From assembly GCA_021163445.1 (NCBI GenBank), contig JAGGWR010000126.1, positions 1 through 32,925 of the forward strand: 32,925 bases of DNA, read 5' to 3'. The translations under genes were made by a program, and so were the position numbers. How positions within the stretch are numbered: position 1 is the stretch's first letter; every line of letters begins with the position of its first letter. Source of the stretch: Candidatus Tharpella aukensis (GTDB lineage: Bacteria; Desulfobacterota; Anaeroferrophillalia; Anaeroferrophillales; Tharpellaceae). The notes under the pieces are model-generated. The model worked only from the letters and a program-made list of their open reading frames with translations. It was not told the origin of the DNA and ran no database searches. This document shows positions 1,665-25,517 of the stretch, piece after piece.

Positions 1665-1905
1665 AGTCAGCAGTTGTCAGCCTGCTGATTGCAACCCGGG
1701 ATATAGGGTTATTTTCTTCCACTTTTTACGCAAAATTTTTATTTTTCCAGCGCTTATTACGCCAAAATTGCGAAACTCACTCGTGCCTCACTCAAACAGT
1801 CGCAATTTTTTGGCTCCATTCGCTGGGAAAAATAACAAAATTTTGCGAGACGTTACAGAAAACAACCCGATATCCCTAGAATTATTGCAAAGCAGGTTGC
1901 TGACT
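1665..1905. repeat. Long palindromic intergenic repeat, family 1 copy 1
   Basis: Nested inverted repeats: GGGATATAGGGTT(1698-1710)/AACCCGATATCCC(1864-1876), GCAAAATTTT(1730)/AAAATTTTGC(1837), TTTTTCCAGCG/CGCTGGGAAAAA, AAAATTGCGA(1764)/TCGCAATTTT(1800); outermost arms CAGCCTGCTGATTGCAA/TTGCAAAGCAGGTTGCTG. Diverged second copy at 24756-24949. Confidence 0.8.
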
Positions 1906-1953
1906 GGACAGTATTGAGTAGGGTTAGACAATTTGAGTTTTTATTTATAGCGT

Positions 1954-23885: not shown

Positions 23886-24698
23886 ATGAATTTTATAAAA
23901 AAGTTGGAACATATCCAGAAAAAAAACAGCTCATTGCTCTGTGTTGGCCTGGATCCATCGTTGGCGCGTCTGCCGGAGTCATGTCGGGCGCAGTCGCAAC
24001 CTTTTCTGGCTTTTAATCGAGCCTTGATTGATGCGACGGCTGATCTTGTCTGTGCTTATAAACCTCAAATTGCCCACTATGCCGCAGTTGGGGCCGAGAT
24101 GGAACTTTTGTCAACAATCAACTACATTCATGAGAAATATCCTGATATCCCGGTGATTTTAGATGCCAAGCGGGGCGATATCGGGAGTACGGCGGAAAAA
24201 TATGCCATTGAATCCTTTGTACGATATCAGGCCGACGCGGTTACTGTCAATCCTTATCTTGGTGGTGATTCACTAGAACCTTTTCTCAAATACCGGGAAA
24301 AGGGGGTGGTTATCCTCTGTCGCACCTCAAATCCTGGGGGCAGTGATCTACAGGGGCTTGAGGTTGACGGTGAGCCGCTCTATCTCAAGCTGGCTGAATT
24401 GGCGGCTGTTTCCTGGAATGAAAATCACAATATTTTGCTGGTGGTTGGCGCGACCTGTCCGGCTGAGCTTGCCCGAGTTCGCGAGAAAGTTGGCGATATT
24501 CCTTTGCTGGTGCCCGGAATTGGGGCGCAAGGGGGCGATTTGGCGGCGGTAATGCAGGCTGGATTAGATCGGCATGGGGCCGGATTGGTGATTAATTCAT
24601 CCCGAGGTATCATCTACGCCGACTCGGGTGAAGGTTTTGCCGAGGCGGCCCGGCAGGCGGCCTTAGAGTTGCGAGACGCGATCAATAGCCATCGTTAA
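23886..24698 (+). CDS. pyrF: Orotidine 5'-phosphate decarboxylase (type 2)
   Basis: SLLCVGLDPSLARLP; VILDAKRGDIGSTAEKYA; VTVNPYLGGDSLEPFL; LVPGIGAQGGD. Confidence 0.96.
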   Translation: MNFIKKLEHIQKKNSSLLCVGLDPSLARLPESCRAQSQPFLAFNRALIDATADLVCAYKPQIAHYAAVGAEMELLSTINYIHEKYPDIPVILDAKRGDIGSTAEKYAIESFVRYQADAVTVNPYLGGDSLEPFLKYREKGVVILCRTSNPGGSDLQGLEVDGEPLYLKLAELAAVSWNENHNILLVVGATCPAELARVREKVGDIPLLVPGIGAQGGDLAAVMQAGLDRHGAGLVINSSRGIIYADSGEGFAEAARQAALELRDAINSHR

Positions 24699-24702
24699 AT
24701 AA

Positions 24703-24723
24703 CAGTTACAAAATTTGTAACTG
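24703..24723. repeat. Perfect 21-bp palindrome after pyrF
   Basis: CAGTTACAAA-A-TTTGTAACTG. Confidence 0.8.
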
Positions 24724-24967
24724 TTCAGTGTCCTGTTGAGATTGAAACCACCACCGGGCGTAAAGGCGCTTGTCCCTCCACTTATTAAGTAAAATTTCTG
24801 TTTTTCCAGCGCTCATTACGCTGAAATTGAAGAACTCGCTACCTCACTCAAACAGCTTCAATTTCGGGCGCGTAATTTATGCCCTTTGGGTATTTGCTGG
24901 GAAAACGACGAAATTTTACGAGACGTTCCGAGAAACCGCCTGAACGCCCTCCATGCTGAATAGCTAC
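24717..24967. repeat. Composite repeat C: family-2-type ends around family-1 palindrome copy 2
   Basis: GTAACTGTTCAG...CTGAATAGCTAC termini; inside GGGCGTAAAGGCG/CGCCTGAACGCCC, GTAAAATTTC/GAAATTTTAC, GAAATTGAAG/CTTCAATTTC. Confidence 0.82.
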
Positions 24968-24978
24968 AAAACTTTTTC

Positions 24979-25076: not shown

Positions 25077-25517
25077 ATGTGTATAGAGATTAAACAACAG
25101 TGCTCAGGTGGTCATCAAAGTGCTCAATTCAGCAACCTTGACAATGTTTTGCCGGCTACAGTGATCAATAAAGTTTATTGTCCCGAGTGTCAGGATAAAC
25201 CGGGATTTGATGCCGCCACAATGCTTGAAGATAATGGCTGGTTGATAGATTATGATATGGAACTTGCCGTCTATCTTCTCGACAAGCATGGTATTGAAAA
25301 AGAGCTGGTTACGCCTGAATATCTTTTTGATAGCCGCTACTCAACCTGGCAGGGAATGTCGCCGACCGATATGGTGGAGAGCATTCGTGAGCGCCAGGAG
25401 ATTATCGCGCTGGCCAAAGTTGATAAGAAAAAATATTTCGCGACCATGAAGAGCTGGAGTATTGATCGGATGAAAGCTTTTACTGAGGCCGGTTGGCGTA
25501 AAGCCCAGACTGCCTAA
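25077..25517 (+). CDS. Uncharacterised protein with Cys-containing N-terminus (CSGGH...CPEC)
   Basis: 146 aa ORF with GAGGAG ribosome-binding site, own promoter-like sequence and terminator; MCIEIKQQCSGGHQSAQF...VYCPECQ. Confidence 0.8.
   Translation: MCIEIKQQCSGGHQSAQFSNLDNVLPATVINKVYCPECQDKPGFDAATMLEDNGWLIDYDMELAVYLLDKHGIEKELVTPEYLFDSRYSTWQGMSPTDMVESIRERQEIIALAKVDKKKYFATMKSWSIDRMKAFTEAGWRKAQTA

Follow-up and report, generated by a model that had tools for sequence, protein, structure and literature searches.

A 32,925-nucleotide stretch of the genome of Candidatus Tharpella aukensis (contig JAGGWR010000126.1, positions 1 to 32,925; here called the window) carries two long palindromes that share the same nested stems, while the sequences of those stems differ between the two in a paired manner. 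The question is what these palindromes are, and whether their pairing is kept by selection on an RNA, by a structure in the DNA, or by the copying of one arm onto the other.

Two palindromic elements in the window

Both palindromes lie where an earlier note, made from the sequence, had placed them, and the stem pairs it quoted are present in both copies, though the outer stems contain mismatches, one in copy A and two in copy B. The true ends of the elements lie slightly beyond the limits it gave, at 1668-1916 and 24717-24967. Copy A is found between the genes for a membrane pyrophosphatase (61-1569) and yebC (1978-2733), both flanks being named by NCBIfam, and has the following features:

1668..1916, + strand: copy A, whole element, 249 bp, with CAGYRCTGTCCGGTTAG-type ends (ends set from same-type relatives)
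1668..1684, + strand: left terminal inverted repeat, degenerate (CAGCAGTTGTCAGCCTG), from alignment with L002-L006 and the element-end scan of relatives
1698..1710, + strand: outer stem, 5' arm; 3' arm at 1864-1876 (RNA and DNA folds)
1730..1739, + strand: stem GCAAAATTTT, 5' arm; 3' arm AAAATTTTGC at 1837-1846 (covarying helix 1)
1742..1752, + strand: stem TTTTTCCAGCG, 5' arm; 3' arm at about 1821-1832 (covarying helix 2)
1764..1773, + strand: inner stem AAAATTGCGA, 5' arm; 3' arm TCGCAATTTT at 1800-1809 (covarying helix 4)
1774..1799, - strand: tip, CTGTTTGAGTGAGGCACGAGTGAGTT, a longer variant of CTGTYTGAGCGNAGCGAGTT (columns invariant in the core alignment)
1847..1854, + strand: conserved unpaired block GAGACGTT on the 3' side (alignment of copies)
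1900..1916, - strand: right terminal inverted repeat, CTGACTGGACAGTATTG on the plus strand (alignment and element-end scan)

Most same-type relatives of copy A in the element-end scan are also 248-250 bp long. Copy B lies between pyrF (23886-24698; NCBIfam) and a gene without an assigned function (25077-25517):

24709..24716, + strand: left target duplication CAAAATTT; right duplication AAAACTTT at 24968-24975, 6 of 8 positions identical, eroded
24717..24967, + strand: copy B, whole element, 251 bp, with IS66-type ends GTAACTGTTCAGTG ... GCTGAATAGCTAC (equals locus L016, 1441-1691)
24789..24798, + strand: stem GTAAAATTTC, 5' arm; 3' arm GAAATTTTAC at 24910-24919 (fold and covariation)
24823..24832, + strand: inner stem GAAATTGAAG, 5' arm; 3' arm CTTCAATTTC at 24856-24865 (fold and covariation)
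24833..24855, - strand: tip, CTGTTTGAGTGAGGTAGCGAGTT
24870..24896, + strand: small extra hairpin GCGTAATTTATGCCCTTTGGGTATTTG on the 3' side (alignment of copies)

A small extra hairpin of the GTGAAGTTTATGCCCTTTAGGGTGCTTCAC type also occurs at homologous places in the cores of L007, L014, L015 and L033. Measured against shuffled sequence, the fold of copy A has z-scores of -7.6 (RNA) and -9.2 (DNA), and that of copy B -6.1 and -2.5.

The site of copy A, judged by comparison of the pyrophosphatase-yebC spacer, is empty in genomes G008 (flank 94% identical), G003, G007 and G009, and that of copy B, in the spacer downstream of pyrF, is empty in G008 and G001. Only about 5 of 9 positions remain identical in copy A's own 9-bp target duplication, and since the duplications of both copies are eroded, these are not the newest copies of their kind. 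At the copy B site (locus L320, orthologous to window 24697-24967), G009 carries another palindromic insertion of unrelated sequence, CCAGACACTCGACATACTATATGTATAGTCTCGCGCCTGG, which is partly present in L019 too; this intergenic spot has been hit twice, by copy B and by the insertion in G009.

A family of short transposons with two kinds of ends

The hairpin family occupies at least 17 separate places in the window's own genome, the closest copies being 92-97% alike. Within a sample of relatives, matches were found in 11 of 13 genus genomes (own included), all three sampled family members outside the genus and one of six genomes of a neighboring family of the order, with none in 37 genomes from elsewhere in the phylum. 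Copies A and B contain no transposase gene, and there are several copies per genome. When copies were aligned with their flanks, two subfamilies were seen that have the core in common but not the ends, and both alignment and end scan revealed terminal inverted repeats at the two element ends. A-type ends (CAGYRCTGTCCGGTTAG, inverted at the right) number 47 in the genus against one for the reversed pattern, while B-type ends (GTAACTATTCAGC) number well over 100 against none.

Each end type is flanked by target duplications of its own length. Among 78 B-ended elements the peak is at exactly 8 nt, with 32 exact duplications and 49 matching at 7 or more of 8 positions (0.6% expected from swapped flanks), and there is no signal at 7 or 9 nt. 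Among 18 A-ended elements it is at exactly 9 nt, with 7 exact and 11 matching at 8 or more of 9 positions (0.3% expected from swapped flanks). The difference in duplication length indicates different transposases for the two kinds of ends. Empty sites, terminal inverted repeats and target duplications of fixed length make transposition well supported, and bear out the earlier suggestion of a mobile element: copies A and B are insertions, non-autonomous MITE-like transposons of two different end families that carry one hairpin core.

In the sister-species genome G008, a gene for an IS66-family transposase is closed by a B end, ACGCTGAATAGTTAC (L091); this link comprises the C-terminal 126 residues and one end, and the assemblies yielded no full-length IS66 element bounded by B ends on both sides. 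As judged from its sequence, copy B is derived from IS66, since it has both IS66 ends and an 8-bp duplication, and one such end is seen on a transposase gene. Copy A does not qualify, its ends being different and its duplication 9 bp. B ends also bound other hairpin elements of 67-250 bp that do not share the core. Examples with IS66 ends, about 130 bp long and with a different hairpin interior (GGGACACAATCC...GGATTGTGTCCC), are L094, L096, L098, L104, L105, L114, L115 and L123; several of these have clear 8-bp duplications, and B ends are common to several MITE families.

Candidate owners of the A ends were rejected: DUF4372, expected of an IS4-type element, is absent from the 13 genus genomes, and DDE_Tnp_1 matches come without A ends. 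Some A-type left ends that carry a promoter-like stretch are cut off by the end of a contig, which is what a full element that failed to assemble would give; no transposase could be linked to A ends there, and the one candidate reading frame lying behind such an end has no Pfam or NCBIfam match. A group of A-ended elements of 77-144 bp (L059, L082, L084, L085, L126) has lost the hairpin at successive levels with the outer stems left, which suggests deletion at the hairpin. An IS1634-type transposon with B ends (L129) was also considered as an end owner, and proved on inspection to be an insertion into a hairpin copy: in G012 (L129, 336-2483), an IS1634-like transposon with a 603-aa transposase lies inside a hairpin-core element. 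The core of another copy (L040, 100-424, in G003) is interrupted by sequence similar to this transposon, and the palindromes may be targets of IS1634-like transposons.

On the tree of cores, four changes of end type are needed, and at least two to three remain when the well-supported branches alone are counted. It follows that the core has moved between end systems, or that the ends have been replaced around it.

Paired change in the core

To count changes at paired positions, 48 cores from the genus, the family and further Desulfobacterota were aligned (A1) on a four-helix structure of 29 pairs, with shuffled and slid partners as controls. In this structure 88.5% of cells are paired. The paired stem changes pointed out in the earlier note are real: both sides have changed in 22 of the 29 pairs, giving 139 double-change cells, against 39.2 +/- 4.9 with shuffled partners (none of 500 shuffles as high) and no more than 32 when the partners were slid by 1-3 columns. 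These counts are of sequences and not of events, and the rows are related by descent, but the slid control keeps that relatedness and still falls far short. The inner helix 4 (columns 51-59 with 86-95) has both-side changes at all nine of its pairs and is 94% paired. The tip columns beside it (60-64, 78-80 and 82-84) are invariant over the 48 rows while the adjoining stem columns change. Two column pairs inside a covarying stem, 16/155 and 17/154, are mismatched (T-C and C-T) in 18-19 of the 48 sequences, from several genomes.

The tip in other phyla

The tip was also searched for by itself, with no requirement for a palindrome around it. Within the phylum, the exact minus-strand 20-mer CTGTYTGAGCGNAGCGAGTT is present in 16 of 395 genomes, from 13 of 246 genera, and the reversed-pattern control gave none there; the 20-mer is also present in 14 viral contigs. 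The broad core pattern has no match in viral contigs, where only the tip matched. A blastn search with a 36-base tip probe added plasmids of Ilyobacter (11 places in one record), Marinobacter, Variovorax, Parabacteroides and Aureibacter. There was no match in the E. coli genomes searched, and a match in Spiroplasma phage C74, which has no matching stem adjoining it, was treated as chance. With a loose core-plus-tip pattern run over 84,980 species genomes, the matches listed are mainly from Desulfobacterota, others being from Bacteroidota, Campylobacterota, Pseudomonadota and further phyla, and a few of these are chance matches. Even before any exact-tip search was made, GNA loops had been the most frequent of the short apical loops; the window copies A and B carry longer variants of the tip.

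In Desulfobacterota, Bacteroidota, Campylobacterota, Pseudomonadota and Fusobacteriota, CTGTYTGAGCGNAGCGAGTT sits at the apex of perfect stems that are unrelated to one another. Distinct flanking stems are complementary at 6 or more of 7 positions in 47 of 52 cases, against 7% with swapped partners, and the pairs beside the exact tip comprise 327 Watson-Crick, two G-T and three A-C. Grouped by sequence, the tip-bearing stems make up 16 clusters. In 12 the arms pair at zero offset, and in another three they pair after a shift of one, as read by eye from the printed arms. The same apex stands on arms as unlike as AAATCATTTG/CAAATGATTT, GCGGCCCGGA/TCCGGGCCGC and GTCCAAAATA/TATTTTGGAC. A loop motif that caps unrelated palindromes in several other phyla suggests a widely spreading DNA structure.

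In a number of loci from other lineages (L296, L299, L301, L270, L271 and L275-L280), a second hairpin often comes after the tip palindrome; its T/C-rich and A/G-rich tracts (e.g., TTTTGGTTACTTTT...AAAAGTAAC) recall intrastrand triplex motifs. The tip motif is absent from the freely available article texts of the relevant literature, and an earlier description elsewhere is possible. Palindromic multicopy families are mentioned in Geobacter genome papers.

Causes of the paired change

Paired change in the core, and the strong RNA folds of both copies, are what would be seen if the core were a structured RNA, as the earlier note had also suggested, and one transcribed as a regulatory element or small RNA and spread by transposons. 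Short repeats of such a kind have been reported as transcribed in other bacteria (PMC3733652, PMC2229807). The manner in which the pairs depart from Watson-Crick is against it. An RNA kept on one strand should tolerate G-T on that strand but not A-C. Among the 48 cores, G-T departures are no commoner than A-C departures (34 vs 43), and G-T is nearly absent from the cross-phylum stems (2 of 343). The orientation of the element to its neighbors is random, with 24 tandem same, 27 tandem opposite, 18 divergent and 11 convergent among 80 copies with genes on both sides, the genes being called by a simple reading-frame rule. No relevant Rfam match was found in the window or in 14 other-phylum loci, and no promoter or terminator stands out clearly beyond chance. 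Given the equal G-T and A-C departures, the random orientation and the lack of an Rfam match, pairing is maintained with no sign of selection on an RNA strand; an RNA reading is not supported, a structured RNA is quite improbable, and a regulatory RNA is unlikely.

Equal numbers of the two departures, together with near-perfect stems, are the expected outcome of a different process, in which intrastrand template switching at replication copies one arm onto the other and no selection acts on the structure. Inverted repeats are known to undergo such arm copying. The earlier note had named covariation no greater than this correction would give as the result that would count against its own reading; the alignment instead has mismatches that persist at 16/155 and 17/154 and a tip that is invariant while its neighboring stem columns vary, both of which weigh against arm correction as the sole explanation. 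Nor could correction alone fix the sequence of the tip, which in other phyla stands on stems of unrelated sequence. It may contribute to the pairing, but as the sole process we regard it as unlikely. Recognition of a single-stranded hairpin would explain both the conserved tip and the lack of strand preference in the pairing. A REP/RAYT-like element, a single-strand palindrome moved by a Y1 HUH transposase that recognizes the hairpin, would also fit palindromes that are scattered between genes and share a conserved tip. Against such a mode of movement are the sharp 8- and 9-bp target duplications and the terminal inverted repeats. These are hallmarks of DDE transposases, while the IS200/IS605 group makes no such duplication. 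The elements are also about 250 bp long, compared to 20-40 bp for REPs, and have no GTAG or CGTC tag (PMC3733652). A REP/RAYT-like system is therefore a very remote candidate for the elements, though the tip alone could have had such an origin.

Proposed explanation

The palindromes are probably non-autonomous transposons of two end families that carry a DNA-level hairpin core. From their ends and duplications, copy B and its kin would be moved in trans by an IS66-family transposase, and those of the copy A type by another transposase, one that leaves duplications of 9 bp. The core would be held as a DNA hairpin, with stem letters that drift yet stay complementary, no preference for a strand, and a fixed tip sequence. 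It would fold when the DNA is single-stranded, at replication or transposition, and the tip may be kept since a widespread host or transposition protein recognizes it, which would help such elements to spread or be tolerated. The main alternative for the core is that it is cargo, its pairing kept partly by arm correction.

Our suggestion that the tip is read by a putative protein present in many bacteria is a tentative one, and the partner is a guess. A broader proposal, which we hold to be somewhat more doubtful, is that the tip CTGTYTGAGCGNAGCGAGTT, together with stems whose sequence is free to vary, makes up a DNA hairpin module found in many phyla. This module would have been passed across unrelated transposon families and phyla because a conserved cellular machine, such as a replication, priming or recombination protein on single-stranded DNA, recognizes the tip; the stems would be made or renewed at each site, hence unrelated palindromes with the same apex.

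Comparison with known systems

REP and BIME sequences (GTAG and CGTC types, PMC3733652) are likewise interspersed extragenic palindromes found in many phyla. REPs are 20-40 bp long and tagged, the GTAG types with tyrosine transposases, whereas the window copies are 249-251 bp and have DDE-type ends. Assignment to REP elements is ruled out by this length, the lack of a GTAG or CGTC tag at the ends, and the target duplications. The intrastrand triplex motifs BoxC and PIT (PMC4666352) are repeated bacterial DNA motifs thought to act via unusual single-strand folds, and several loci in other phyla have a hairpin of like appearance, rich in T/C and A/G, behind the tip palindrome. The window copies, however, have no triplex-like tract, and the tip motif is absent from the text of PMC4666352.

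In its most frequent variants the tip has the minus-strand sequence GCG-N-AGC, the same as d(GCGNAGC) mini-hairpins. Such mini-hairpins, with their GNA triloops, are of very high stability. They have been used, for example, in PMC4686876. The two window copies differ from them in being longer variants without a clean GNA triloop, and in the tip the mini-hairpin is flanked by fixed CTGTYTGA and GAGTT and stands on a long stem.

IS66-family insertion sequences share the GTAA... ends and the 8-bp duplications, but the window copies carry no transposase and their interior is the hairpin core. As mobile elements, the two copies are of a known kind, MITEs, with one type derived from IS66. Bacterial MITEs (PMC2229807, PMC3733652) are similarly about 250 bp long, without a gene, with terminal inverted repeats and target duplications, and are intergenic, present in many copies and able to fold into a long hairpin. 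MITEs are common, and two copies of one are ordinary; what is unusual here is that a single covarying core is carried by two end families of different duplication length. The elements also show that paired change is by itself no proof that a palindrome works as an RNA, and scans for new RNAs could include a simple check, the counting of G-T against A-C departures. Also unlike bacterial MITEs, the tip of this core recurs in other phyla: a probe made of the loop alone picks out the apices of perfect palindromes of unrelated sequence in five or more phyla as well as in viral contigs, a sign of a DNA fold whose putative partner is widespread.
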